This document shows positions 5,983-57,362 of a DNA stretch of 64,000 bases, one piece after another (positions within the stretch are counted from its first letter, which is position 1; the number at the start of each line of letters is the position of its first letter). The notes under the pieces were generated by a model. It did no database searches. It was not told where the DNA came from and saw only the letters and a list, made by a program, of their open reading frames with translations. The translations under genes and the position numbers were made by a program. Origin of the DNA: Pedobacter indicus (lineage in GTDB: Bacteria > Bacteroidota > Bacteroidia > Sphingobacteriales > Sphingobacteriaceae); contig NZ_QRGB01000001.1 in NCBI RefSeq assembly GCF_003449035.1, forward strand, positions 2,046,001-2,110,000, read 5' to 3'.

Positions 5983-6000
5983 AAATTGTTTATCTAAACT

Positions 6001-7257
6001 ATGAAAGCTGAACTTATTGTAATCGGAGACGAAATATTAATCGGACAGATAGTAGATACAAATTCAAGTTGGATTTGCTCACATCTGGATGAGATTGGTG
6101 TGAATGTAATTCATATCTCAGCGATAGCAGACAATAAGCAGAAGATTAAGGAAGCTTTGGTTCTCGCTTCCGGACGGGTTGATTTGATCGTTATGACAGG
6201 CGGTTTGGGGCCAACAAAAGATGATGTAACCAAACAGGCTCTTCGCGAGTACTTTGATACGGAAATTGTAACTGATGCTAATGTGTTGTCACACGTGCGC
6301 GAGATTTTTGCTAAATATAAGCAACCTATGCTGCCAGAAAATGAGCAACAGGCCGAAGTTCTAAAAATTGCGGAGGTAATGTTTAATAAGGCGGGAACGG
6401 CTCCTGGAATGTGGATTGAAAAGAAAGGCGTTTGCTATGCTGTATTGCCGGGTGTGCCGACGGAGATGAAATATTTGATGAACCATGAAGTAATTCCGAG
6501 GCTGGAAAAAATGCCTGATAGGAAATTGCGCTTCCATAAGACGATTTTAACAGCAGGTATTGGTGAGTCTTTTTTAGCGGGAACCATCGCACCGGTAGAG
6601 GCTAGTCTGCCCGATTCGATCCAGTTGGCTTATCTGCCTACCTACGGACAGGTACGTCTTCGGTTGACAGCAATTGGGCGTGACGAGCAGTCGGAGACTG
6701 ATATAAGAGAAGAACTAGATCATTTTGCCGGTAATATTATCAATTTGATACCTACATATTATATTAATGATACAGGGGAGTCTCTCCAATACAGTTTTTT
6801 AAAAACGGTTGAAAACTTAGGGTTAACGGTTGCAGCTGCGGAAAGTTGCACTGGAGGCTATTTTTCACATCTAATGACTCAGGTGCCCGGTAGTGGTCAG
6901 GTTTTTTTAGGATCAATTATCAGTTATGCTGAATCAGTAAAAGAAGCTGAGTTGGATGTAAAAGCGGAAACATTGGAACAGTATACCGCTGTTAGCCAAC
7001 AGACTGCTGAGGAAATGGTTTCTGGAGTTAAAAGACGTCTCCAGAGTGACTATGCAGTGGCGATCACGGGGATAGCGGGACCTGATGGTGCAACCAATGA
7101 GAATCCGGTCGGCTCGGTATGGATTGCAGTGAGTGGATTGTCCAAAACTGTTTCGACAAAATTTTTGTTTGGTAAAAGGCGAGAAGACAATATAATAAGG
7201 GCTGCAACAAGCGCTTTGTTTCTATTGTTTCGTTTAGTGAAAGAGGAAAATTCGTAA
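6001..7257 (+). CDS. cinA: CinA family protein (competence/damage-inducible; NMN amidase)
   Basis: This 418-residue protein has both CinA parts. The N-terminal molybdopterin-binding-like COG1058 domain carries GDEILIGQIVDTNS and TGGLGPTKDD; the C-terminal amidase domain carries AAESCTGG near residue 280 and ITGIAGPDG. In characterised members the C-terminal domain hydrolyses nicotinamide mononucleotide to NaMN for pyridine-nucleotide salvage and the N-terminal domain has ADP-ribose pyrophosphatase activity. It lies 18 bases after lptD and 38 bases before the E2 gene, so it is probably co-transcribed. Confidence 0.92.
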   Translation: MKAELIVIGDEILIGQIVDTNSSWICSHLDEIGVNVIHISAIADNKQKIKEALVLASGRVDLIVMTGGLGPTKDDVTKQALREYFDTEIVTDANVLSHVREIFAKYKQPMLPENEQQAEVLKIAEVMFNKAGTAPGMWIEKKGVCYAVLPGVPTEMKYLMNHEVIPRLEKMPDRKLRFHKTILTAGIGESFLAGTIAPVEASLPDSIQLAYLPTYGQVRLRLTAIGRDEQSETDIREELDHFAGNIINLIPTYYINDTGESLQYSFLKTVENLGLTVAAAESCTGGYFSHLMTQVPGSGQVFLGSIISYAESVKEAELDVKAETLEQYTAVSQQTAEEMVSGVKRRLQSDYAVAITGIAGPDGATNENPVGSVWIAVSGLSKTVSTKFLFGKRREDNIIRAATSALFLLFRLVKEENS

Positions 7258-7295
7258 TTATTTAACTAACTTAGCTTACCTAAGAGTTGAAAAAT

Positions 7296-8708
7296 ATGGC
7301 AAAATATAATCTAATTCTTCCGCGGATGGGTGAAAGTGTTTCGGAAGCAACTATTGTTAAATGGCTGAAGCAACCGGGTGATTGGATAGAAGTGGATGAC
7401 TCAGTGGTAGATATAGCGACGGACAAGGTAGATTCGGATGTGCCATCGCCGGTTGAAGGTAAACTGATAGAGCAGCTTTTTACGGAAGATAGCATTGCCC
7501 AAGTAGGAGATGTGATCGCAATATTAGAGGTGGAAGGTGAGCGTGACGATGACGCATCTCAATCTGGGGAAAGAACTTCTGATTCAGGGTATTCGGAGCC
7601 GGCAAAAGGAGAGGATTCTGATGGCGCAGATGTGATAGTCGATATTGATGACTCTCAACAGTCATTAAACGTGGGAGATAGAGATAGCATCGATGATGAA
7701 GAGGGCAGGGTAATACCAGGGTTAGACTTACTAGGCGAGCGTGGAAAAGGTGGACGTTTTTACTCTCCTCTGGTTAAAAACATTGCTGCCGAGGAGGGGA
7801 TTAGTGAAGAAGAACTTGATCAGATAACTGGTTCGGGTTTAGAGGGACGGGTGACAAAACAGGATATTTTAAATTATATCGACGAGCGAAAGGACGCACC
7901 CGTCGCAGTAGAAAAAGCACCTATTTCAGAAACAGTTGGGTCATCTTCTGACTCTATGGAATCGAAAGATTCTTCTACCAGGACGATGGTGGCCGAGACT
8001 GGCGATGAGATTATTGAAATGGATAGAATGCGCAAGTTAATTGCGCAACATATGGTTGATAGTGTTCAAACATCACCTCATGTTTGCTCATTCATCGAGG
8101 TCGATGTAACGAACATCGTGAACTGGAGAAGCCGGGTGAAGGAGGATTTTGAAAAGAAAGAAGGCGTTAAAATTACATTTACTCCAATTTTTATTGAAGC
8201 AGTGGCGAAGGCGATCCGCGACTATCCAATGATAAATATATCAGTATCTGGTACTCAAATTATTAAAAAGGGAAATATTAATGTAGGTATGGCGGCAGCC
8301 TTGCCATCTGGAAACCTGATTGTACCTGTAATACGAAATGCGGATCAGTTAAACTTAGTCGGATTAAGCCAAGTGGTGAATGATTTAGCTGGTCGCGCCA
8401 GGGCAAATCGATTAAAGCCAGACGAGACCCAAGGTGGGACATTTACGGTAACAAATGTTGGCTCTTTCGGAAGTATGATGGGTACACCAATAATTAATCA
8501 ACCGCAGGTAGCAATATTGGCAATTGGTAGTATAGGTAAAAAGCCGGCCGTATTGGAAACAGAGTACGGAGATGTAATCGCTATACGTCAAAAAATGATT
8601 ATGTCTCTATCTTATGATCACCGCGTTGTAGACGGCGCATTGGGAGGGATGTTTTTAAAGAGAATTGCTGAGTATCTTGAAGGCTGGGATATTGATCGAA
8701 AGCTTTAG
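7296..8708 (+). CDS. Dihydrolipoamide acyltransferase, E2 of a 2-oxoacid dehydrogenase complex
   Basis: The acyl-transferring core of a pyruvate or branched-chain 2-oxoacid dehydrogenase complex. Domains run in order: a lipoyl domain with the lipoylated lysine K44 in ATDKVDSD; a long acidic Ser/Asp-rich linker; a peripheral-subunit-binding domain (FYSPLVKNIAAEEGI to GRVTKQDI, about 145-190); and a C-terminal catalytic domain ending in SYDHRVVDGALGG, with the catalytic His and Asp. I chose the ATG at 7296 (470 residues) over a TTG three codons upstream because MAKYNLILPRMGE is the usual E2 start. The E1 and E3 genes are not nearby, so which 2-oxoacid is used cannot be read here. Confidence 0.9.
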   Translation: MAKYNLILPRMGESVSEATIVKWLKQPGDWIEVDDSVVDIATDKVDSDVPSPVEGKLIEQLFTEDSIAQVGDVIAILEVEGERDDDASQSGERTSDSGYSEPAKGEDSDGADVIVDIDDSQQSLNVGDRDSIDDEEGRVIPGLDLLGERGKGGRFYSPLVKNIAAEEGISEEELDQITGSGLEGRVTKQDILNYIDERKDAPVAVEKAPISETVGSSSDSMESKDSSTRTMVAETGDEIIEMDRMRKLIAQHMVDSVQTSPHVCSFIEVDVTNIVNWRSRVKEDFEKKEGVKITFTPIFIEAVAKAIRDYPMINISVSGTQIIKKGNINVGMAAALPSGNLIVPVIRNADQLNLVGLSQVVNDLAGRARANRLKPDETQGGTFTVTNVGSFGSMMGTPIINQPQVAILAIGSIGKKPAVLETEYGDVIAIRQKMIMSLSYDHRVVDGALGGMFLKRIAEYLEGWDIDRKL

Positions 8709-37758: not shown

Positions 37759-39102
37759 ATGAAAACTAAATACAATAGAAGAGATTTTATTTCTGCAGCA
37801 GCTATTGCAGGCGGCGGTATTGCTGTCGGAGCGCCTTACTTTTCTTTCGCGGATGATGGGAAACCTGCAATTCTTGGTGGATCAAAGGCAAAGGCCGACA
37901 GTTTTACGAATTGGCCGCTTTTTAATGAAACGGAAGAAAGGGCACTAATAGACGTATTAAAGAGTGGGAAATGGGGTCGGTTAAACGGAAAAGTGGTTGC
38001 CGGCTTTGAAGGTGAATATGCGAAATTATTGGGCGTTAACCACAGTCTGGGCGTGTCCAGCGGCACCAGTGCTCTGTATACGATTTTGGGGGCGTTGGAT
38101 GTTGGACCGGGAGATGAGGTTATTATGCCTGTTTACACCTTTATCGCAACTTATAATGTCGCCGTTTTAAACTATGCCTTGCCAATTTTCGTCGATACCG
38201 ACATCGAAAGCTTTCAAATAGATTCGACAAAAGTCGAGTCAGCTATCGGTCCGCAAACGAAAGTACTTATGCCGGTACATATTGGCGGTTCCCCATTTAA
38301 TATAGATCATTTTCTTCAAATAGCTGATAAGCATAACCTTCCATTGATTGAAGATGCTTGCCAGGCACATATGGCTGAATGGAAAGGGAAGAAAGTTGGA
38401 TCTTTCGGTCTGGCAGGTGCTTTCAGTTTCCAATCGTCTAAAAACCTGAATTGTGCGGAGGGTGGAGCTATAACCAGCAACAATGCCGATTTTATTAAAA
38501 CTTGCTATAATTTCCACAATCAAGGGCAGGGGGGCACAACGACATCATTCGGAACGGGTACGGGCACAAGAGGAACAAACTTGAGATTGACGGAGTTTCA
38601 GGGAAATATCTTGCTCGCACAGATGACAAGATTAAGAGAGCAAGCTGCTACTCGTGATAGAAATGCAAGATATCTGACCAGTCTTTTAAACGAAATAGAA
38701 GGAATAGAGCCTGCCAAGCTTTACGAGGGCACAACAGCAGGCGCTTATCATCTATATATGTTCCGGTACCTTAAGGAAGGGTTTGGAGGATTAAGCAGAG
38801 ATAAGTTCATTAAAGCATTACAGGCCGAAGGAATACCTTGTTCGCAAGGCTATGGTCAAATGAATAAGGATGAATATGTTACGGGTTTAGCTAAAAACAA
38901 ACACTATCTGAAGATTTATGGTGAAAAGAGAATGCAGGAATGGCTGGAACAGAATGAGTGTCCTCAGAACGATAAATTAACGAGTGAACAATCCGTTTGG
39001 TTTCTTCAGTATATGCTATTGGGTAACCAGTCGGATATGGATAAAATAGCTGCCGCTATTAAAAAAATAAAGAAATACGCAAAACAAATCAATAGCTTAT
39101 AA
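37759..39102 (+). CDS. Tat-exported DegT/DnrJ/EryC1/StrS aminotransferase, copy 1
   Basis: A PLP enzyme of 447 residues of the DegT sugar/aminocyclitol aminotransferase family. It begins with a twin-arginine signal (NRRDFIS, then a Gly/Ala-rich hydrophobic stretch to about residue 30), which is odd for a family that normally works in the cytosol. The active site is intact: D199 in EDACQA and Schiff-base K228 in SFQSSKNLNCAEGG. The C-terminal part with NECPQNDKL and MLLGNQSDM resembles scyllo-inosose/2-deoxy-inosose aminotransferases. It heads a module with murQ and a ceramidase-like gene. Predicted periplasmic; the amino donor and acceptor are unknown. Confidence 0.85.
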   Translation: MKTKYNRRDFISAAAIAGGGIAVGAPYFSFADDGKPAILGGSKAKADSFTNWPLFNETEERALIDVLKSGKWGRLNGKVVAGFEGEYAKLLGVNHSLGVSSGTSALYTILGALDVGPGDEVIMPVYTFIATYNVAVLNYALPIFVDTDIESFQIDSTKVESAIGPQTKVLMPVHIGGSPFNIDHFLQIADKHNLPLIEDACQAHMAEWKGKKVGSFGLAGAFSFQSSKNLNCAEGGAITSNNADFIKTCYNFHNQGQGGTTTSFGTGTGTRGTNLRLTEFQGNILLAQMTRLREQAATRDRNARYLTSLLNEIEGIEPAKLYEGTTAGAYHLYMFRYLKEGFGGLSRDKFIKALQAEGIPCSQGYGQMNKDEYVTGLAKNKHYLKIYGEKRMQEWLEQNECPQNDKLTSEQSVWFLQYMLLGNQSDMDKIAAAIKKIKKYAKQINSL

Positions 39103-39952: not shown

Positions 39953-41572
39953 ATGATCAGCTCGCGAATATTAAATGTTTTGTTCCTTGTAGCCTTGCCC
40001 TATCTTTTGTTAGGACAAACGGTGTACCAGGTTGGCAGCGATAAACAGCCAATTGAACCTTCTTCCTCAATCTTCTCGGTTGCACTCGCCGGTTATGGCG
40101 CGCCAAGAGACGGACGATTTAGCCTGGAGTGGATAAAAGTTGACAACGAATCCATCCCGTTCAAAATTTTTGACAAAGATGAGCAAGCAGGTAAACGTGC
40201 AGAGAGAAGTGAAATTCAGCCTGTTGATTTCGCAGTATATAAAAATAAGGTATACGGATTAACGGGAAATAACGAGTTATTGCGGTATCAGGGTCATGGA
40301 GAATGGTTACGTATTGCCATTCAAAATGGCATAACTTATACGCAAGATATCGTGAAAATTGGTGTGCACAAAGATCGATTGTACGGACTAGATGCATCGG
40401 GTACTGTGTTTATCGCTCAGCATAAAACCGATAATAACCTTTTTACACATACCCTTTCGATTGAAAATAACAAAGAACACGTTCTTCTGATTTCCCTTGA
40501 TCTGTGTGGTTTTGACTACGCTTTTATAAATCAGGTGAAAGCAGCTATTTCCAAAAAGCACAAAATCCCTGCATCGGCCATCTTGATCAATGCTTCACAC
40601 ACGCATTTTGCTCCTGTCTCACAAAACTGGTTCACTTGGGGAGAACATTGTCAGCGGCCCAACCCTGAATACATGGAGGCTGTCGTAAAACCCGCTATAA
40701 TCACATCCGTTAAAAACGCTATCAAATCCGCGAAATCCGCGACTATATCCTTCGGTCGCGGGCAGGTGGAGATTGGGTCTAACCGAAGGTTTCCGGATGG
40801 TCCTTACGATCGGGATGTTGATGTTATTAAGATAGCCTATCAAGGTCAGCATACGAATAATATTTTGTTTATGCACGGCTGTCATCCCGTTTTCCAAAAT
40901 GCAGGGGAAGAGGGGGTAACGGTAAGTGCTAATTATCCCGCCGTCGCAAGAGATCTGATCAACAGGAAATCTGGCGGTGAAAGTATGTTCATCCAAGGAA
41001 CCGCAGGTGATGTGAATCCGATCGATTCAGATCATCGGCTCAGCGGAGAAAAACTGGCAAATGCTGTTCTTGATGTACTGGATAATCAATTAATGGAAAT
41101 TTCCGGCGAGATCGACTACCATTTGGACTCCGTCAATTTTCCAGTTAAAGCTTGGTCTGTAGATGCGCTGGAAAAATTCAAAAAAGAGAATAGCGGGAAA
41201 GAAGGAGATGTAGGTGCAGAGAAGAACGTGCGATGGGCCGATCTGATGCTGAAGCACCACCGGGAAGGCACGATGCCCGAGTCAATGCCGGTTTATATCC
41301 AAACAATAAATATTGGAAACTGGAAGTTAGTAGGCTTGTCTAGGGAAGTGGTTTCCGAATACGGCCTCGGCATAAAAGCTTTATATCCTGACAAGATTGT
41401 TAGTGTAGCCGGATATACGAATGATGTAGCGAGCTACTTGCCTACCATTCGCCATATTAAGGCCGGTGTTTATGAAGGCGATGAATCGTTTTTCTGGTAT
41501 GGCCAACCCAATATATTCCCCGACAATGTATATGACCAGATCATTTCGGCTGTAAAGGCCAATAACCGCTAA
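39953..41572 (+). CDS. Neutral/alkaline ceramidase-like secreted hydrolase, copy 1
   Basis: A 539-residue exported protein with a signal peptide ending near LLGQT. About 120 residues without clear family follow, then the neutral-ceramidase N-terminal domain with the zinc-binding ASHTHFAP and the HGCHPVF strand. At the position where true ceramidases carry the serine nucleophile (GDVSPN) this protein has GDVNP (N355). It may therefore not hydrolyse ceramide. The C-terminal ceramidase Ig-like domain is absent. It is the third gene of the DegT-murQ module; the substrate is unknown. Confidence 0.78.
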   Translation: MISSRILNVLFLVALPYLLLGQTVYQVGSDKQPIEPSSSIFSVALAGYGAPRDGRFSLEWIKVDNESIPFKIFDKDEQAGKRAERSEIQPVDFAVYKNKVYGLTGNNELLRYQGHGEWLRIAIQNGITYTQDIVKIGVHKDRLYGLDASGTVFIAQHKTDNNLFTHTLSIENNKEHVLLISLDLCGFDYAFINQVKAAISKKHKIPASAILINASHTHFAPVSQNWFTWGEHCQRPNPEYMEAVVKPAIITSVKNAIKSAKSATISFGRGQVEIGSNRRFPDGPYDRDVDVIKIAYQGQHTNNILFMHGCHPVFQNAGEEGVTVSANYPAVARDLINRKSGGESMFIQGTAGDVNPIDSDHRLSGEKLANAVLDVLDNQLMEISGEIDYHLDSVNFPVKAWSVDALEKFKKENSGKEGDVGAEKNVRWADLMLKHHREGTMPESMPVYIQTINIGNWKLVGLSREVVSEYGLGIKALYPDKIVSVAGYTNDVASYLPTIRHIKAGVYEGDESFFWYGQPNIFPDNVYDQIISAVKANNR

Positions 41573-47427: not shown

Positions 47428-48792
47428 ATGACACATAAAAATGATTTTAGCCGTCGAAAGTTTCTTTCTGCTGTTGCTGCAACGTCATTTGCTGCTGCGG
47501 TTTCCCAATCGTTTCCTACCTATGGAAAGCTTGGCAACACATCTGGAAAATTAGCAGCTTTAGGGGGCTCGCCGATAAGGACGAACAAAGCAATCGGCCC
47601 GAAATGGCCCTATGTTAATGAAAAGATGGTTGAGAACATCGTGTCAACCACAAAGAGCGGTATATGGAGCCGAATACAAAAAAAGGGCGGGAATGTCGAT
47701 ACGTTCGAAACTGAGTTTGCTGCGCTGATCGGTGCGAACCATAGCGTCGGGACGGGCTCCGGTACCCAGGCATTGAGCACATGTGTTGAAGCACTGGGCA
47801 TTGGTCCGGGTGACGAAGTAATTACATCACCCTATACGGATATGGGGACAATATCGTCCATATTAACCAGTAGAGCGTTACCCGTTATGGTTGACCTTGA
47901 TCCGGATTCGTATCAACTCGATCCGGATGAGATTGAAAAAAGGATTAATAAAAATACAAAAGCGATTATGCCCGTACACATTATGGGAATGCCCGCTAAT
48001 ATGGAGCGTATCAAGGCTATTGCAAAGAAACATAACCTACGGGTTATTGAAGATTCCTGTCAAGCTCCTTTTTCGAGATATCAGGGGAAAGCTATCGGTA
48101 CAATTGGAGATTTAGGCTGTTTTAGTTTTCAGGCGAGTAAAGCGATTGCTTGTGGAGAAGGAGGAGCGGTTGTTGGTAATGATACAGCCTTAATGGATCA
48201 GTGTTTTACTGTTCAGAATAGGGGCGCTTCTAAGGAGGGTCGCAACGAAACAATTGGTCCGAAGTATCGGATGAATGAATTTGAAGCTGCGATTTTATTA
48301 GGTCAATTGCCTTCAGCAAAAGAACGGTTTGAAATCAGAAATAAAAATGCGGATTACATAAATGCTCAACTAAAGGGTTTTCCCGGACTCGTACCGCAAA
48401 AACGCTATGAAGGAACGGAAAGCGCTTCCTATTATCATTATGCGCTAACTTATCATAAAGAGCACTTTGATGGAGCTGATAGAAGTAAGTTTTTAAAAGC
48501 TGTTAATGCTGAAGGCATCGGTTTTGGTTCTTATATCAGAAAAGGTCTCCATCGGGAACCATGGATACAGCATATCTTAGGTCTGGATGGTTTTAAAACC
48601 ATGTATTCCGAGGCACGATTAAAAGAGTATCAGGAAGGGATGAATTTGCCTAACTGCGATCGGATATGTGATGAGACCTTAGTTTCCATATGGGGTTCGG
48701 GAACACTGCTAGGCTCAAAAAATGACATGGATGATATTGTGAATGCGATTATGAAAGTATATGACAACCGCGCTCAACTTAAATCTTTATAA
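47428..48792 (+). CDS. Tat-exported DegT-family aminotransferase, copy 2
   Basis: A 454-residue PLP aminotransferase with a twin-arginine signal (FSRRKFLSAVAATSF, hydrophobic to about residue 32). The PLP site is complete: D209 in EDSCQAPF and K238 in SFQASKAIACGEGGAVV. The N-terminal catalytic region has GSGTQALSTCVEALGIGPGDEVI and the C-terminus GTLLGSKNDMDDIVNAI. It differs more from copies 1 and 3 than they do from each other. It heads a run of seven genes, through the ThuA-like gene, with small gaps. It is predicted to act in the periplasm; the reaction is unknown. Confidence 0.85.
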   Translation: MTHKNDFSRRKFLSAVAATSFAAAVSQSFPTYGKLGNTSGKLAALGGSPIRTNKAIGPKWPYVNEKMVENIVSTTKSGIWSRIQKKGGNVDTFETEFAALIGANHSVGTGSGTQALSTCVEALGIGPGDEVITSPYTDMGTISSILTSRALPVMVDLDPDSYQLDPDEIEKRINKNTKAIMPVHIMGMPANMERIKAIAKKHNLRVIEDSCQAPFSRYQGKAIGTIGDLGCFSFQASKAIACGEGGAVVGNDTALMDQCFTVQNRGASKEGRNETIGPKYRMNEFEAAILLGQLPSAKERFEIRNKNADYINAQLKGFPGLVPQKRYEGTESASYYHYALTYHKEHFDGADRSKFLKAVNAEGIGFGSYIRKGLHREPWIQHILGLDGFKTMYSEARLKEYQEGMNLPNCDRICDETLVSIWGSGTLLGSKNDMDDIVNAIMKVYDNRAQLKSL

Positions 48793-49731
48793 ATGAAGCT
48801 AATTAACCGAAGGGCATTTGTTGCCAGATCACTGGCTGCGGCAGCTGTCATGTCAGCTACCTCGGGGATCGCTAAAGCGGAAAGTTCAATCTCTTTATTA
48901 TCGGGTAATCCGCAGGCGGGTCCAGCACCCTCTATTATTGATACCAACATAAATCTATTGAATTGGCCTTTTCGTAAGTTTAAATATGGAGAGACAGACG
49001 CTCTGGTGAAGAAGTTGAAAAAACATCATATTTCCCAAGCTTGGGCCGGTAGTTTTGAAGGACTTTTTCATAAAAACATAGACGCTGTTAATAAGAGATT
49101 AGCTGCTGAGTGCAAGAAGAGTGGGCGCGGATTTCTACTTCCTTTCGGTACGGTAAATATTGCTTGGCCAGATTGGAAGGAAGATCTCAGACGCTGTGAT
49201 GAACAGTATGGTATGAAGGGTGTGAAAATCTTTCCTATTTATCAGACCTTTAATTTTGAACAACCTGAATTTGTAGAGCTATTGGAAGAAGTGGCAAAGC
49301 GTAACATGATTTTACAGGTTGTGGGTGATATTGATGATTTACGTAATATTCACCCCATCGTAAAAGTAAGAAGTGTGAAGTTTGAAGCGATGGTGGATGC
49401 AGTGAAAAAAGTTCCAAATGCGAAGGTCGAACTCGTGTATTGGAACAACCGAGTTGGGGGTAAAGTGCTGGATCGCTTTGTTGGAGAAACGAATGTGTTT
49501 TTTGATATCTCCAGGATCGAAACAAACGGAGGGCTCGGTTTGCTGATCGAAGGTAAACCATGGAATGGTACGACCAAGCCTGTTCCTGCTAAAAGAATTA
49601 TGTTTGGTTCACATGCACCTTTTTTTCCGGTAGAAACTAATCTGTTAAAGCTTTTTGAATCTCCACTTGAAAAGCAGGATTTTATTGATATAGCTAACGG
49701 CAACGCCAGCAGCTTTCTAAAAACCTCTTAA
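48793..49731 (+). CDS. Tat-exported amidohydrolase-2-like protein without HxH
   Basis: A TIM-barrel amidohydrolase-2 (PF04909-type) protein of 312 residues with a Tat signal (INRRAFVARSLAAAAVMS, cleavage near AKA). At the first strand, where metal-dependent members carry HxH, it has DTNIN (D50 to N54), followed by WPFRK. The last-strand motif is GSHAPFF instead of GSDxP. It therefore probably lacks the usual metal centre. The same NxN/S-WPFRK form recurs at 52977. Its start follows the DegT stop without a gap; the next gene encodes an HxH partner lacking a signal. Confidence 0.75.
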   Translation: MKLINRRAFVARSLAAAAVMSATSGIAKAESSISLLSGNPQAGPAPSIIDTNINLLNWPFRKFKYGETDALVKKLKKHHISQAWAGSFEGLFHKNIDAVNKRLAAECKKSGRGFLLPFGTVNIAWPDWKEDLRRCDEQYGMKGVKIFPIYQTFNFEQPEFVELLEEVAKRNMILQVVGDIDDLRNIHPIVKVRSVKFEAMVDAVKKVPNAKVELVYWNNRVGGKVLDRFVGETNVFFDISRIETNGGLGLLIEGKPWNGTTKPVPAKRIMFGSHAPFFPVETNLLKLFESPLEKQDFIDIANGNASSFLKTS

Positions 49732-49740
49732 CCTAAAAAA

Positions 49741-50628
49741 ATGAACCAAGAATCTTTTGTCTTCGATCCTAAAGCCTATGGCCTTCCCGATCTGCAGCAG
49801 TTGCAAGCATTAAGAATATGGGATACGCATTATCATGGTTTATGGACGACAAATAATCCGATCGGGCAACACCAAAGGATGATGTATTATGTAAATCGAA
49901 TGGGAATTGAACGGGTTGTGTCAGTCGATATCGGAGGAACCTTACAAAACCCGCTCGATATAATGCCTTATGATAATGACCTTAAAGTTTTGTTGGAGAA
50001 AGAATCATCACATGTGTCAGGCATTATACCTATTGATCCCGGTTTCCCCGATGAAAGCTGTGCAAAAATGGAGAAGTGGATTAAGAATGGTCCGTGTATA
50101 GGCATCAAATACGTTGGTGGTAATAAATTAGGTATTACCTGTGATCATCCTAATAATGATCAGATTATAAAATATGCTTCGGAATTAGGTTGTGTTATTT
50201 ATATCCATACGTGGATAAAAATTGGGGGTGATCCGTCATACCCTGGAGGTGGGAATCTGTCGGGTGAATCGACACCTATGAACGTTGCCACTTTAGCGCA
50301 GCGCTTTCCCGATGTAGCGCTGATATGCGGGCACGCCGGAGGGGACTGGGAGCTGGGAACGAAAGCCATCAGACCGTACGAAAATGTTTTCTTTGAGTTT
50401 GCTGGAGCTGATCCACATTCAGGTTCCGTTGATTTTGCTGTTAACGAGTTGGGTGTAGATCGGATCGTCTGGGGTGGGCATGGGCCGTCCCGTTCCTTTG
50501 CAACAGAGCTTTCAAAGGTTTTGGACGCTTCACTTTCTCATGATGAGCAAATGAAAGTTTTTGGAAGAAATTACAGAATGTTAGCCAGAAAGATATTTGA
50601 TAGTAAAAATGTGCCGCTAACTGTCTGA
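49741..50628 (+). CDS. Amidohydrolase-2 family metal-dependent hydrolase, no signal
   Basis: A 295-residue amidohydrolase of the PF04909 type with the metal motif DTHYH (H30, H32), then IYIHTW, ICGHAGGD and a last-strand GGHGPSR in place of the usual GSDxP. It is probably a metal-binding enzyme, such as a lactonase, decarboxylase or C-C/C-O hydrolase. It has no export signal, although the gene just before it (9 bases) codes for a Tat-exported relative without the metal motif. Co-export as a pair is one explanation; a cytoplasmic role is the other. Confidence 0.75.
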   Translation: MNQESFVFDPKAYGLPDLQQLQALRIWDTHYHGLWTTNNPIGQHQRMMYYVNRMGIERVVSVDIGGTLQNPLDIMPYDNDLKVLLEKESSHVSGIIPIDPGFPDESCAKMEKWIKNGPCIGIKYVGGNKLGITCDHPNNDQIIKYASELGCVIYIHTWIKIGGDPSYPGGGNLSGESTPMNVATLAQRFPDVALICGHAGGDWELGTKAIRPYENVFFEFAGADPHSGSVDFAVNELGVDRIVWGGHGPSRSFATELSKVLDASLSHDEQMKVFGRNYRMLARKIFDSKNVPLTV

Positions 50629-50656
50629 TGAACTCGTGAATTTTAATTTCAACGTT

Positions 50657-52027
50657 ATGAATCGCTATGTGTTTAAAATATATCTTTTAACTTTCTTTAT
50701 AACCTCAATGGTTTTTAGTCATGTTTTTGGATCTGTTGATTCGGTTCGATATTCAGTTGGCACGGCCCAGATGGATATTACTCCGGATGTGCGTGTGAAA
50801 AACTGGGTGACCGGAAAGCCGTATGAAGGGATAACTGACTCATTGAGTGTGAGTGCAACTGTTCTAAGTGATGGAAAGAATAAGGTTGTAATGGTGTCAT
50901 GGGATCTGGTGGACGCAGGCGAATCTGCTACCGATGAGGTTCGTAAGCGGGTTTCTTCTAAACTGGGTATTGATAAAGCTAATATTTGGGTCAGCGGTAC
51001 ACATAACCACTCCGCACCATGGTCACCTGTCTATAATGAGGGCTACCGCGGAAAGGAAAGAGATACGTGGTGGGCAATTCGGTATATGCCAGAGCAGAAT
51101 GAAGATCCCTTCTTTAAGAAATGGATGGAGTATCTGATGGATCAAACATTGAAAGCGGTAACGGTGGCTAATGAGTCACTTCAAGAAGCTACCGTTTGGA
51201 TAGGACGAGCAGATGCTTCAGAATTTATGAATAACCGACGCCCGCGGGCTCCACAATGGGGTGTGGCAGAAGACAATACACCAAAGGGTTATGGTTATAA
51301 GCATGAAGCATGGAATCCGAAAGTGCTACCGGGTGGATTTAGCTATGGGCCTTTAGATAGAACCTTATCACTGGTTTCTTTTAGAGATGACAGCGGCAAT
51401 AATATCGTTTCATTTTTTAACACGGCAATTCATGCTGTTTCGATCTATCCTTATTCCAATGCAGTATCGAGCGATTGGCCGGGCGAGGCAGCAAAAAAGA
51501 TTCGAGCGCGTATTGGTGGGCACGCTGTTTTTTTTCAAGGAGCGGCGGGCGATGTGAACCCTTGGAAAAGAGGCAGCCAAGCTGTCGAGGAGATGGGAGA
51601 AGGAATCGCCAATTTGGCTAAAGCCGCCTTTCAGTATAGCGTTCGGCTGACGAACAGTGAGCTTCGGGTTTATACTGCGAAAATCGGTTTGCCCTTAAAC
51701 GAAAGCGGTAAGGAGCGTACCGGTATGGATCATGTTGATGCAGAAGTCAAACTCGTAACCATGGGGCCATTGGCTTTTGTAAGTTTACCAGGAGAACCAT
51801 TGACAGATTTGGGTAAAAATATTCGGGAGCATTCGCCTTTTCCTCAAACAATTGTATTGGGTTACTCAAATGGTAATGGTGTTCATTATGTCGGAATGCC
51901 CTGTGAGCAAAAATTTGGTGGTTATGAAATGACGATGGGAACAGTCGGTGAAAAAGAAGCAGGGATTATGTTGGTTGAAACTGCCAATCGCTTGTTGGAC
52001 CAGGCTTATGAAGATGTGAAAAAATAA
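50657..52027 (+). CDS. Neutral ceramidase-like secreted hydrolase, copy 2
   Basis: A 456-residue exported protein. The ATG at 50657 gives a normal signal peptide (MNRYVFKIYLLTFFITS, to about residue 27); a GTG seven codons earlier is less likely. The ceramidase N-terminal domain is recognisable by GTAQMDITPD, the zinc-site GTHNHSAPW, FNTAIHAVSIYP and GAAGDVNPWKRG. The ceramidase serine is replaced by Asn (N301). It ends without the ceramidase C-terminal domain. It lies between two amidohydrolase pairs in the DegT copy 2 run. Confidence 0.78.
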   Translation: MNRYVFKIYLLTFFITSMVFSHVFGSVDSVRYSVGTAQMDITPDVRVKNWVTGKPYEGITDSLSVSATVLSDGKNKVVMVSWDLVDAGESATDEVRKRVSSKLGIDKANIWVSGTHNHSAPWSPVYNEGYRGKERDTWWAIRYMPEQNEDPFFKKWMEYLMDQTLKAVTVANESLQEATVWIGRADASEFMNNRRPRAPQWGVAEDNTPKGYGYKHEAWNPKVLPGGFSYGPLDRTLSLVSFRDDSGNNIVSFFNTAIHAVSIYPYSNAVSSDWPGEAAKKIRARIGGHAVFFQGAAGDVNPWKRGSQAVEEMGEGIANLAKAAFQYSVRLTNSELRVYTAKIGLPLNESGKERTGMDHVDAEVKLVTMGPLAFVSLPGEPLTDLGKNIREHSPFPQTIVLGYSNGNGVHYVGMPCEQKFGGYEMTMGTVGEKEAGIMLVETANRLLDQAYEDVKK

Positions 52028-52051
52028 CTTGTCTAAAGATTTAAATATACG

Positions 52052-52987
52052 ATGAAAAAAAATATGGATCGAAGGGAGTTTGTTGCTCATAGCGCTGCTG
52101 TTGCAGGTGTTGTATTGGGTTCAGGGCTTTTTGGCTTTACCCATCCGCAAGAACCCTTGTTTGATTATCGAAATGGAAGCAATAGGTCTTATGATTTGAT
52201 GAGCGAAGTGCTCAAATACCGTAAAATAGATGCACATGCGCATGTCGGCCTGGGTCCAGAAACTCCACGTGACCATATAGACATTGCTGACCGCTTGGGC
52301 ATAGAGACATTGGTCATATCGAAGCCAGTGACACGAGGAGAGGGTCCGCCGTCAGAATTTATTGCTAATAACGAGTTTGTCCTCAAAGCAGTTAAGGAAT
52401 TTCCCGACCGTTTTAAAGGACAGATGACCGTCAATCCGCGTTACCCTAAAGAGGCGATGGATGAGATTAACAGACGGGTAGACCAAGGTTTTGTCGGCAT
52501 GAAATTGTATACTCAGGTTAAAATAAACGATCCTGCTTTTTATCCGATTATCGAGCGGTTTATTGAACTAAAAATGATCATACTCATGCACACAGGTATT
52601 GGTAATGCGCGTGTTATTATGAATGAGACCGAGCCAGAAGGAATGAGTATGCCAGAGGATTTTGTGGATGCTGCAAAGCGTTACCCTGAAGCTATGTTCC
52701 AGCTGGCACATTTGGGTGGGGGAATAGATTGGGAGAATGCGTGTAAAACTATTAAAGACTATAAAAACATTTATGTGGATGTATCTGGTAGTAACAACCA
52801 GTCCGATATCATAGATTATGCAATGAAGTATTTAGGTGAAGACCGTATGTTTTTCGGGTGTGACAATAGCTTTTATCAGGGTGTGGGGCACGTGATCGCC
52901 GCAAATCTAACTGAAAGACAACGCGAAAAAATTTATTTTGAGAACTATAACAACATATTGAGAAAGGCAGGTAATCATGTTGATTGA
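52052..52987 (+). CDS. Tat-exported amidohydrolase-2 with HxH metal motif
   Basis: A 311-residue TIM-barrel amidohydrolase with a Tat signal (DRREFVAHSAAVAGVVLG). The metal site looks complete: H62 and H64 in DAHAHVG, GMKLYTQ, LMHTGIGN with a His, QLAHLGGG with a His, and GCDNSF with the last-strand Asp. This is the reverse arrangement of the first pair: here the exported protein has the metal ligands and the downstream overlapping gene lacks them. The stop overlaps the start of 52977 by eleven bases, so both are translated together. Confidence 0.8.
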   Translation: MKKNMDRREFVAHSAAVAGVVLGSGLFGFTHPQEPLFDYRNGSNRSYDLMSEVLKYRKIDAHAHVGLGPETPRDHIDIADRLGIETLVISKPVTRGEGPPSEFIANNEFVLKAVKEFPDRFKGQMTVNPRYPKEAMDEINRRVDQGFVGMKLYTQVKINDPAFYPIIERFIELKMIILMHTGIGNARVIMNETEPEGMSMPEDFVDAAKRYPEAMFQLAHLGGGIDWENACKTIKDYKNIYVDVSGSNNQSDIIDYAMKYLGEDRMFFGCDNSFYQGVGHVIAANLTERQREKIYFENYNNILRKAGNHVD

Positions 52988-53765
52988 TGCAAACGTGTCT
53001 ATAGGACACTGGCCGTTTAGAAAATTGCAATATAACAGTTGCGATATGTTGTTGGAAAGGATGGACCGCTTTGGTGTGGATCGGGCAGTGGTGGGTAATT
53101 TTAATGGTATTTTTTACAAAGATGCAGAGGCGGCAAACGCAGAGCTGTTCAAAGAGCTTCAGTCGAAGAAAAAGTATCGGGATAAATTTATTCCTTTCGG
53201 AGTTGTTAATCCGATATTCAACGGGTGGCAGGATGACTTGACACGGAGTGTTCAAAAATACGGCGTGAAGGGGATAAGGATGTACCCCAAATATCACCGT
53301 TATGATTTGCTGCATCCCGCGTCAGTTGAGCTCGTGAAGAGGTGCAGAGACTTAGATTTGCCGATAGCCTTGACGTTACGGATCGTTGATAGACGACCTA
53401 GCTCGTGGCTGGATATTGACAAGGAGTGGGCTTTGGCTGATACGATTCCCATTATAAGGGAGGTTCCTGATGCGAAATTTTTGATTCTGAATATTGCTAA
53501 TGGTGCTTATCTCAATGAAGCCGACACGGAAGTAATTAAAAGTGCCAATGTGTTAATGGATACTTCGGGTAGAGCATTGAGCAATCTGGGGCGGCTCTTG
53601 GAACAATATGGTAAAGATAAGTTTACGTTTGGGACGCATGCTCCAATATTAGATTATTGTACAGGATTACTGCGGGTTGAGGCTTTGAGAGAGAATGAGG
53701 CGACCGATAAGGAAAAGAATCTGTTGCGATATGAAAATATAAGTAAATTTTTAAACTTGACATGA
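52977..53765 (+). CDS. Amidohydrolase-2-like protein without HxH and without signal
   Basis: A 262-residue barrel protein closely similar to the C-terminal part of the 48793 product. It starts with MLIDANVSIGHWPFRK, so HxH is NxS, and ends with GTHAPILDY in place of GSDxP. It has no export signal. It overlaps the previous gene by eleven bases and the ThuA-like gene by ATGA, suggesting strict co-translation and perhaps a complex with the Tat-exported HxH enzyme. It may be a structural or regulatory subunit. Confidence 0.75.
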   Translation: MLIDANVSIGHWPFRKLQYNSCDMLLERMDRFGVDRAVVGNFNGIFYKDAEAANAELFKELQSKKKYRDKFIPFGVVNPIFNGWQDDLTRSVQKYGVKGIRMYPKYHRYDLLHPASVELVKRCRDLDLPIALTLRIVDRRPSSWLDIDKEWALADTIPIIREVPDAKFLILNIANGAYLNEADTEVIKSANVLMDTSGRALSNLGRLLEQYGKDKFTFGTHAPILDYCTGLLRVEALRENEATDKEKNLLRYENISKFLNLT

Positions 53766-54631: not shown

Positions 54632-55990
54632 ATGTTAAAAAATTATTCTCGCCGCGATTTTATTCTTCAAAACCTGATGGTAGGCGCGGGGATGGGTTTA
54701 ACTTCCATGGTGCCTTACCGGCCGAGGAAAGATGATTTGCCCGCGATACTTGGCGGGCCTAAAGCACATGCGGGCGACTGGTCACGCTGGCCAATTTGGA
54801 AACCAGAGACAGATGAAGCGCGTGTGTTGGACGTTCTGAGAAGTGGCAAATGGTCTCGAGCTAATGTGGTTGCCGACTTTGAAGCCCGATGGGCTGAGTT
54901 GATTGGTTCCAAACGTTGTCTGACCTTAGTGAATGGTACAAATTCTCTTTTTGTTTCCTTGCTTCAGTTGGGCATCGGTGGCGGAGATGAAGTTATTTTA
55001 CCTCCTTATACGTTTATTGCTTGTCCGCAAGCCATTTTGGCTACAGGTGCAATTCCGGTTTTTGCGGATATTGATAAAGCGACTTATCAGATTGACCCGA
55101 AAAAATTAGAAGCGAAGATAACGCCTCGCACGAAAGCGATTTTACCTGTCCATATTTTAGGGTTTCCTTGTGATATGGTGTCGATTATGAAAATTGCAAA
55201 AAAGCACAATTTGGTGGTTGTAGAGGATGCCTGTCAAGCATGGTTGGCTGAGATTGACCATAAAAAAGTGGGAACATTTGGGGATGCGGGCTGCTTTAGC
55301 TTTCAAAACTCGAAAAATATACCCATGGGTGAAGGTGGCGCTATTGTGAGCGATAATGACGAGTTTATGGATCGATGCTATTCCTATCATAATTATGGAC
55401 TAGCCCATGGGTCGGTTAAGCCTGAGCCTGGCGGGTCTTTTGTTATGGCGGGGACAAAATTGAGGTTAACAGAATATCAGGCAGCTATCGGTTTTAGTCA
55501 GCTCGTTCGTTTTCAGGATCAAACCGATTTGAGAGAACGAAATGCGGCTTACTTAAAGTCACTTCTTGAAAATATTCCAGGAATCATAACGTACTCTGTG
55601 TACGAGAATGTAACGAAATCGGTATTTCATCTTTTCCCATTTAGGTATGATCAGGAACAGTTTAAGGGGTTGCCCAGGTCGGAGTTCTTAAACGCTCTTC
55701 GTGCCGAAGGTGTGCCTTGTTCTTCGGGCTATGTCCCTTTAAATAAGATGCCTTATTTAGAGCATGCATTCAAGAGTAAAAATTTTCAAAAGATGTATAC
55801 TGCTGAGGAGTTGGATATTCAAAAATACAACGAAAATAATAGCTGTCCGCTGAACGATGAGCTCTGTGAAGAAGCTGTTTGGCTTTCGCAGAATATGTTG
55901 CTTGGAAACCGGACAGATATGGAGAATATAGCTCACGCAATTCAGAAAATACACAAAAATGCCGATAAAATCAAAAAGCAGAACGCGTAG
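54632..55990 (+). CDS. Tat-exported DegT-family aminotransferase, copy 3
   Basis: A 452-residue PLP aminotransferase with a Tat signal (YSRRDFILQNLMVGAGMGL). D199 in EDACQA and K228 in SFQNSKNIPMGEGGAIVS are at the same residue numbers as in copy 1, and the C-terminal NNSCPLNDELCEEAVW and MLLGNRTDM are also shared with it. This places copies 1 and 3 as closer paralogues. The C-terminus resembles inosose-type aminotransferases. It overlaps the next gene by 32 bases. No cytosolic partner enzyme is evident. Confidence 0.85.
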   Translation: MLKNYSRRDFILQNLMVGAGMGLTSMVPYRPRKDDLPAILGGPKAHAGDWSRWPIWKPETDEARVLDVLRSGKWSRANVVADFEARWAELIGSKRCLTLVNGTNSLFVSLLQLGIGGGDEVILPPYTFIACPQAILATGAIPVFADIDKATYQIDPKKLEAKITPRTKAILPVHILGFPCDMVSIMKIAKKHNLVVVEDACQAWLAEIDHKKVGTFGDAGCFSFQNSKNIPMGEGGAIVSDNDEFMDRCYSYHNYGLAHGSVKPEPGGSFVMAGTKLRLTEYQAAIGFSQLVRFQDQTDLRERNAAYLKSLLENIPGIITYSVYENVTKSVFHLFPFRYDQEQFKGLPRSEFLNALRAEGVPCSSGYVPLNKMPYLEHAFKSKNFQKMYTAEELDIQKYNENNSCPLNDELCEEAVWLSQNMLLGNRTDMENIAHAIQKIHKNADKIKKQNA

Positions 55991-57362
55991 GTTCGTGTTT
56001 CGGTTTACAATAGTCTTCATGGCTTATTTTATAAGTTCTTTTGTCTCTGTGCAAGCGCAAGAGTCTTCAGGATCGTGGAAGGCTGGTGTAGCAAAAGTTA
56101 ATATTACACCATCTGAACCGCACTGGTTGGCAGGTTATGCGAGTCGTACAGCACCTTCTGATGGCAAATTAACAGATCTGTGGGTAAAAGCATTGTATTT
56201 GGAAGATGCGGGTGGAAAGAGGTCTGTTTTAATAACAAGTGATTTGTTGGGAATGCCAAAGGCATTGTCAGATGATATACGAACAGAAATAAATAAAAAA
56301 TACGGATTGAAAATTGACGAGGTGTTAATTAATAGTTCGCATACACATTCAGGGCCGGTTTTGGAAGCAGCATTAGTGGATATTTATGAACTCGACGAAA
56401 AAAACAAGCAGCGGGTAATTGCTTACTCCGCTCAACTTGGAAAGCAAATTGTTGAGTTGGTAGGGATGGCGATGAAGGATATTAAGCCAGTCAAGATATT
56501 TTCTGAAAACGGTGTTACCAGGTTTCAAGTAAATAGGAGAAACAATAAAGAAGCAAATCTAGAGCAGCAGACTTCGCTTAGCGGTCCGAATGATTATGCG
56601 GTTCCTGTTCTGAAAGTTATTGATGCTGAAAGCAATAATCTGATGGCCATAGGCTTCGGATATGCGTGTCATCCGACTGTATTATCGTCGAACGAATGGT
56701 CTGGTGATTATGTGGGTTTTGCTCAGATAGAACTTGAAAAAGAATACCCGGGAGCGTTAGCGATGTTTTTTCAATGTACAGGTGCTGATCAAAACCCTCT
56801 TCCGAGGCGGACAGTAGGGCTCGCGAAGCAATATGGAAAAACATTGGCTGCTGCGGTGACTCGTGTATTGGAAGAAGATATGAAGGAGTTGGCACCGATA
56901 CTTACAACCGGTTATAAAGAAATTGATTTAAAGTTAGCAACCCCGCCTACGCGGGAAGAACTAGAGAAAGTGGCAGCGGAGGCTTCGGGTTATGAAAGTC
57001 GCTGGGCAAAAAGGATGATAGAGAAAATCGATCGAAAGGAGAAACTCCGAACTTCTTATCCATACCCAATACAACTTTGGTCACTAGGAGATCAGAAGAT
57101 TGTAGCTTTAGGAGGTGAAGTTGTGATTGAATATAGTATTCAGGTAAAAAAGCTTTTGGGAAAGGACACCTTCGTTCTGGGATACTCAAATGATGTGATG
57201 GCTTATATTCCTTCGGATATTATCTTGAAAGAAGGTGGTTATGAAGGTGATACATCGCAAAAAGTATATGGCTTGCCAGCGAAATGGGCAGAAGGTATCG
57301 AAAAAAGTATTTTAACAGGGGTGTCGGATTTAGCGGGACAAAGCATTAACAACAAAGAATAA
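55959..57362 (+). CDS. Neutral ceramidase-like secreted hydrolase, copy 3
   Basis: A 467-residue exported protein with a basic N-terminus and signal (RRFVFRFTIVFMAYFISSFVSV) cleaved near VQAQ. Ceramidase-type motifs are VAKVNITP, the zinc-site NSSHTHSGPV, GYACHPTVL and CTGADQNPLPRR. At the ceramidase serine position it has Asn (N279), and the motif GDV is GAD. It shares the family with copies 1 and 2 and again sits directly after a Tat-DegT gene, with a 32-base overlap that implies coupled translation. Confidence 0.78.
   Translation: MPIKSKSRTRRFVFRFTIVFMAYFISSFVSVQAQESSGSWKAGVAKVNITPSEPHWLAGYASRTAPSDGKLTDLWVKALYLEDAGGKRSVLITSDLLGMPKALSDDIRTEINKKYGLKIDEVLINSSHTHSGPVLEAALVDIYELDEKNKQRVIAYSAQLGKQIVELVGMAMKDIKPVKIFSENGVTRFQVNRRNNKEANLEQQTSLSGPNDYAVPVLKVIDAESNNLMAIGFGYACHPTVLSSNEWSGDYVGFAQIELEKEYPGALAMFFQCTGADQNPLPRRTVGLAKQYGKTLAAAVTRVLEEDMKELAPILTTGYKEIDLKLATPPTREELEKVAAEASGYESRWAKRMIEKIDRKEKLRTSYPYPIQLWSLGDQKIVALGGEVVIEYSIQVKKLLGKDTFVLGYSNDVMAYIPSDIILKEGGYEGDTSQKVYGLPAKWAEGIEKSILTGVSDLAGQSINNKE

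Follow-up and report, generated by a model that had tools for sequence, protein, structure and literature searches.

In hitchhiking through the twin-arginine translocation (Tat) pathway, a subunit without a signal crosses the membrane together with a Tat-signalled partner after the two have assembled in the cytoplasm. The examples described in the available parts of the source, HybOC and PaoABC of Escherichia coli, are redox enzymes built of unlike subunits with one named carrier each (PMC4273604). A heteromer that joins a catalytic to an auxiliary amidohydrolase-superfamily protein is also on record: this is AibH1H2, the 2-aminoisobutyrate hydroxylase, whose AibH1 retains a Zn site and for which the available sections of the two reports mention no Tat signal (PMC7782822, PMC12141560). 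ACMSD, according to the accessible part of its report, works as a dimer in which an arginine is contributed by the adjacent subunit (PMC11650718). Here we describe two gene pairs in a 64,000-nucleotide stretch of the Pedobacter indicus genome (contig NZ_QRGB01000001.1, positions 2,046,001 to 2,110,000; hereafter the window, with positions counted from its first letter). Each pair encodes a 'WPFR' amidohydrolase-fold protein without the metal motif HxH, here called W, and an amidohydrolase that normally has a metal site, here called H. We consider it probable, at roughly 70%, that the pairs represent a heteromer of ancient origin, made of two related amidohydrolases and exported in the folded state via Tat on one signal, a reading that draws on features seen in the sequences (one signal per pair, the pattern of metal ligands, linkage, exchange of the carrier and natural fusion). 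Compared with HybOC and PaoABC, W and H are paralogous amidohydrolase barrels with a lineage-dependent carrier and fused forms, and their export is predicted from sequence; compared with AibH1, W has lost HxH. A literature search, which left subscription journals largely uncovered, found no report of an amidohydrolase Tat hitchhiker or of such pairs among the papers listed, most of which were judged by title or by title and opening of the abstract.

The elements of the two pairs are as follows.

48793..49731, plus strand: W1, Tat-signalled 'WPFR' amidohydrolase-fold protein with D-T-N-I-N at the HxH place.
48793..48882, plus strand: predicted Tat-type signal region of W1, NRRAF followed by a hydrophobic stretch and AKA (direct reading and mechanical rule).
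49729..49740, plus strand: W1/H1 junction, one in-frame TAA and three codons; the same gene order forms one open frame at loci L177 and L193.
49741..50628, plus strand: H1, signal-less, with HxH (DTHYH), beta-5 and beta-6 His, and His in place of Asp on beta-8 (GGHGPS).
52052..52987, plus strand: H2, Tat-signalled amidohydrolase with HxH, H180, H220 and D271.
52052..52141, plus strand: predicted Tat-type signal region of H2, DRREF followed by a hydrophobic stretch (direct reading and mechanical rule).
52977..52987, plus strand: H2/W2 overlap of 11 bp.
52977..53765, plus strand: W2, signal-less 'WPFR' partner with D-A-N-V-S and without HxH.

Both pairs lie within a single run of plus-strand genes, and all four open reading frames (ORFs) score above the gathering cut-off of Pfam Amidohydro_2, PF04909 (30.8, 47.9, 83.4 and 53.5 bits versus 26.4). 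Read directly, the N-terminus of W1, MKLINRRAFVARSLAAAAVMSATSGIAKAES, is of the Tat type; that of H2 is MKKNMDRREFVAHSAAVAGVVLGSGLFG, with D-A-H-A-H at the HxH place, and that of W2 is MLIDANVSIGHWPFRK. H1 has no room for a signal because its start lies only three codons past an in-frame stop, and W2 has none because an in-frame stop stands five codons upstream of its start. The Tat system is present in this 3.47-Mb genome, which has one TatC (E 4.3e-64). An earlier account of this DNA, the sequence-only reading, had described pair one as a Tat-signalled W1 without HxH (NxN) next to a signal-less H1 that has it, pair two as an H2 with both signal and HxH next to a W2 with neither (NxS), and the gaps as small or overlapping; the ORFs bear this out, W1 and H1 lying 9 bp apart in one frame and H2 and W2 sharing 11 bp. 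Its listing of signals and HxH motifs is thus correct, but it left out the absence of the beta-8 Asp from H1, whose metal site, on the residues as read, is not a textbook one, and a third set elsewhere in the same genome (locus L008):

L008 11717-12523: W3, no signal and no HxH.
L008 15158-16084: H3, export-type N-terminus with RK for RR, and D-G-Y-A-T at the HxH place.

W3 and H3 run in the same direction with two genes between them, and neither has HxH.

The two genes stay together over a wide range of bacteria. Pairs of this kind are found in Bacteroidota, Verrucomicrobiota, Planctomycetota and one Oscillospiraceae genome, and a pattern scan limited to a single genome for each species found 66 loci. 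Within Sphingobacteriaceae, the family of the window genome, 19 of 151 genomes have matches, in part weak ones, with E values up to 1e-3, and Daejeonella lutea carries such pairs. At least 3 of 395 genomes match in the phylum sample (E 1e-12; the window genome is one of them), at least 17 of 223 in the order of a genome titled Opitutus (E 1e-15) and at least 28 of 294 in the phylum of a genome titled Planctomycetaceae (E 1e-15); these are lower bounds, because only part of each genome's first-look candidates was scored. Since the sets of relatives were drawn by W-like queries, they are uninformative on H without W. One Verrucomicrobia genome shows an expansion, with 13 W-profile matches, and a Bacteroidota-type pair with a broken W frame (L055) lies on a contig titled Acidobacteria, which may reflect either a transfer or a binning error. 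Among 136 distinct W loci, H is adjacent or fused at 129. Of the remaining seven, L094, L173 and L189 lie at contig ends, L006 is the split set of L008, L163 is an odd fragment, and L146 and L147 have no H next to W in the DNA examined. Where H carries the signal, the two genes overlap by 11 bp in 62 of 67 pairs; where W does, the order is W then H in nine pairs and H then W in ten. With W lacking HxH throughout, an 11-bp overlap that recurs and recurrence across phyla, the pattern, as judged from these sequences, exceeds chance.

For the census of signals, the seven W without adjacent H were excluded and two ambiguous cases omitted (L051, at a contig edge, and the H-carrier type pair of L062, which looks frame-broken), which leaves 127 pairs. 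That L062 pair (5691-7456) looks degenerate, with no clear RR signal and a short H; the adjoining W-carrier pair is intact. Carrier states were assigned by hand from the N-termini, W, none and ambiguous being listed and all remaining pairs counted as H. The signal lies on H in 67 pairs, on W in 19 and on neither in 39; two pairs are fused and none has a signal on both. By hand, every one of the 86 exported unfused pairs has exactly one signal, and a mechanical rule differs in 4 of the 86, matching the hand states in 121 of 125 unfused pairs. The mismatches are L025, where H has RK instead of RR, and three apparent doubles (both W of L047 and the H of L070), in which a second signal-like stretch lies in frame upstream of the start codon used by relatives and, at L047, overlaps the H gene; we judge these three flags spurious. 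An earlier automatic rule, which was too strict, had given H 58, W 14, none 54, both 1, fused 2 and W alone 6, plus 1 signalled. In 58 of the 67 H-carrier pairs an in-frame stop lies no more than 20 codons before beta-1 of W (one of them, L055, counts because its W start is missing), and with the frame closed there these pairs have no room for a missed W signal.

The carrier has changed repeatedly. On the W tree, at least seven changes are required among the states W, H and none (3 for the W signal, 5 for the H signal), and on the H tree at least six (2 and 4); both are quick trees of 126 rows with many weak forks, the short W of L067 having been dropped from the W tree. At L177 and L193 the two proteins are joined: a single frame of 644 codons from stop to stop encodes W and then H, the order of pair one, behind one Tat-type N-terminus ahead of W, and the sole start codon within its first 60 codons is TTG. 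As L177 and L193 are sisters on the W tree, the fusions probably go back to one event. In the fused H half DSYFT has taken the place of HxH, and the beta-8 residue is His.

The sequence-only reading had seen signal and metal motif as exchanged between the members of the two pairs. Both window pairs do look that way, but this is no rule: where HxH occurs in a pair it belongs to H, some pairs have none, and the signal alone changes place. HxH is absent from beta-1 in all 136 W sequences, W1 and W2 included (in at least one of them, L055, the stretch itself is missing), and at L181 W has His at the first place but not at the second. The apparent swap in the window thus arises because W never has HxH and the signal carrier alone varies by lineage, and we rejected the idea that signal and HxH swap against each other. 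Among the 129 H rows HxH is present in 121; six of the other eight are clear losses (L054, L056, L062, L172 and the two fusions, L177 and L193), one lacks the stretch (L071) and one is misaligned and reads WHEH (L144). H-carrier pairs have HxH on H in 65 of 67 cases. The beta-5 His, beta-6 His and beta-8 Asp of H are kept in 67/67 H-carrier and 39/39 signal-less pairs, and H2 has the Asp too; the beta-8 residue is His in the H of 17 of the 19 W-carrier pairs and of both fusions, as in H1. Extra H-like genes without HxH occur near pairs with an intact H at L021 (10010-10945, AYGN), L022 (1772-2770, AYC), L037 (6028-7002, AYAN) and L082 (5051-6010, AYAN).

That the WPFRK subunit is non-catalytic, as also proposed from sequence alone, is only half supported: HxH has gone, but the pocket of W is kept. 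In the 127 paired W, Asn predominates at the first HxH place (114 sequences), and Tyr or some other residue usually fills the second; Asp4 is kept in 126, Trp12 in 120, Asp138 in 124 and Arg140 in all 127, positions that the predicted strands would place near the C-terminal face of the barrel. W1 and W2 have His and no Asp at the beta-8 position. In view of these invariant residues, the idea that W is inert was not adopted. More tentatively, and with doubts that exceed our confidence, we suggest that W completes the active site of H in trans through Arg140 and its pocket, and that the heteromer is a natural experiment in Tat hitchhiking, in which descendants of a cytosolic enzyme pair were moved across the membrane repeatedly, with the signal on either subunit but never on both, and on one occasion through a gene fusion.

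Two kinds of neighbour recur beside the pairs and serve below as a comparison.

47428..48792, plus strand: Tat-signalled DegT/DnrJ/EryC1-type pyridoxal phosphate enzyme, a recurrent neighbour and the control partner of W1 in the fold test.
50636..52027, plus strand: Ceramidase_alk-like protein (Pfam) between the two pairs, a recurrent neighbour.

The window contains three Tat-signalled DegT-type proteins (37759-39102, which is over the DegT family cut-off, 47428-48792 and 54632-55990) and, close by, Ceramidase_alk-like genes at 50636-52027 and 55959-57362 (Pfam), with a further, similar-looking gene at 39953-41572. The DegT gene, W1 and H1 (47428-50628) share one reading frame with single stop codons between them, and DegT and W are in a common frame at L054 and L062 as well; the shared frame of the three is probably due to chance, although it is reminiscent of the fused form. 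DegT lies near 45 of the 125 unfused classified pairs, many loci being too short to tell. Neighbour families include DegT, Ceramidase_alk, SusD, DUF7133 and CN_hydrolase; within the neighbour ORFs scanned (56 of 118 and 50 of 104), the families allow no pathway to be named, and no AibF/AibG-type partner is among the first 25 families.

W and H have diverged in step. The correlation of their distance matrices is 0.91 over 127 pairs, a value whose permutation leaves shared ancestry in. At 29 H-carrier loci with a DegT neighbour it is 0.87 for W-H, 0.44 for W-DegT and 0.49 for H-DegT, and at 45 loci of all kinds 0.94, 0.47 and 0.53, with a DegT set that may include paralogues. Structure prediction of the complex, proposed as a check by the sequence-only reading, covers pair one. 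AlphaFold2 gave the in-frame W1-Q-PKK-H1 chain (611 residues) a predicted template modelling score (pTM) of 0.87 and a predicted local distance difference test score (pLDDT) of 89.3, versus 0.60 and 83.8 for the DegT-Q-W1 control (767 residues), a comparison in which the four-residue link forces W1 and H1 close together and the control is imperfect (a disordered linker of about 40-50 residues, other row numbers and weaker confidence in W). The W1-H1 alignment had 46 rows (2 joined, 36 W, 8 H) and was picked by the correct placement of the halves before any fold score; the DegT-W1 alignment had 37 (3 joined, 17 DegT, 17 W). A chain of two domains whose mutual placement is unsure would be expected to score near the 0.60 of the control. 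Related barrels may dock by habit, and the scores come without coordinates or interface error; with these limits, the model suggests that W1 and H1 dock.

Among solved structures, gamma-resorcylate decarboxylase, ACMSD and their kin come closest in fold: the W half of the model aligns to gamma-resorcylate decarboxylase and ACMSD chains with Z up to 23.6 among the matches listed. AibH1H2 (8ful), of a type of hydroxylase characterised by a dinuclear Mn/Fe site, also appears, with Z 20.5 against the W half, amid many other amidohydrolases. AibH chains were not among the PDB profile matches of H1 or W1 up to E = 1; the PDB profile search with W1 gave weak matches only, and the PDB sequence search with W2 chance-level matches only. 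In ACMSD and gamma-resorcylate decarboxylase, unlike in the W/H pairs, all subunits are of a single kind and every one has a metal site. The Arg140 of W follows beta-5 and the Arg239 of ACMSD lies beyond His228, so the two probably occupy different positions.

On the reading that we prefer, each pair would form an obligate heteromer of amidohydrolase-superfamily TIM barrels, with the metal site normally in H and a pocket without HxH in W. Both chains would be translated from the adjacent (W1/H1) or overlapping (H2/W2) frames and would fold and assemble in the cytoplasm, where H would take up its metal. The complex would then cross the inner membrane by Tat on the signal of one subunit, that of W in pair one and that of H in pair two, which would place both proteins in the periplasm, and W may there support the active site of H. 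Together with the exported DegT and ceramidase-like proteins, the complex may act in the catabolism of a nitrogen-containing sugar or a similar compound. Co-export of a heteromer on one signal was already the model of the sequence-only reading; the single signal per exported pair, carrier exchange, fusions and co-evolution support it as probable, and so does the W1-H1 model, with its imperfect control.

Several observations weigh against this reading, besides the forced proximity and the imperfect control of the fold test. The W of L146 and L147 have no adjacent H within the 3.2-3.7 kb examined, and the third set of the window genome is split. The clear losses of HxH from H (6 of 129) show that a pair can persist after its canonical metal site has gone. 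In W-carrier pairs the open frame ahead of beta-1 of H spans 24 to 534 codons, so that the absence of a signal on H is a judgement on the start codon. A sign test on phylogenetically independent contrasts had too few contrasts and was without power, and Cys content as a marker of compartment gave no separation. Finally, a check of DegT signals at 27 loci found three, L060, L064 and L203 (the same locus as L169), where a Tat-type DegT stands beside signal-less W and H, which means that DegT can be exported where W and H bear no signal, or that DegT can carry them; these signal-less pairs may either stay inside or be carried by something else. Four other sets (L065, L207, L208, L209) have no signal on DegT, W or H and look wholly cytoplasmic, since DegT is signal-less too.

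The alternative that survives best, which we nevertheless regard as unlikely, is that the compartments are split: the signalled member would be periplasmic, its signal-less neighbour would act on another step in the cytoplasm, and the linkage would be regulatory only. The signal-less members do show no export signal, and the exported DegT beside signal-less W and H implies that such clusters can mix compartments. However, whether W or H is exported depends on the lineage, which is hard to accommodate if the order of reactions fixes the compartment, the natural fusions place both proteins in one chain behind one Tat-type signal, W and H co-evolve more tightly than either does with DegT, and W1 and H1 dock in the model. 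It is also conceivable, and very improbable in our view, that the Tat cargo is larger, a ternary complex of DegT, W and H carried in some genomes by the signal of DegT. The recurrence of DegT and the three loci with a Tat-type DegT and a signal-less pair would fit such a cargo, but the in-frame DegT-W1 read reaches a pTM of only 0.60, the W-DegT correlation over the 29 loci is only 0.44, and exported pairs beside a Tat-type DegT, including both in the window, bear a signal of their own. That W and H are independent paralogues with no physical contact, adjacent by chance or operon inheritance, is suggested by the W that lack an adjacent H (L146, L147) or lie apart from it (L008) and by the rise in tree correlation that vertical inheritance alone brings, but is highly unlikely given an adjacent or fused H at 129 of 136 W loci (three of the other seven being at contig ends), the recurrent 11-bp overlap and the retention of the pair among W-carriers while its order inverts.

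The Tat hitchhikers named in the available parts of the source are a few redox enzymes with one carrier each (PMC4273604). The W/H family lies outside redox metabolism and comprises signal-less, W-carried, H-carried and fused forms of what is apparently one complex, a variety that opens to direct test whether the choice of signal-bearing subunit matters to Tat and how co-export evolves. The family also allows one to ask why an amidohydrolase keeps a twin without the metal motif. What makes it interesting is that the carrier has been exchanged and that natural fusions exist; through these, the oddity of a single locus becomes a testable case of the evolution of Tat co-export.

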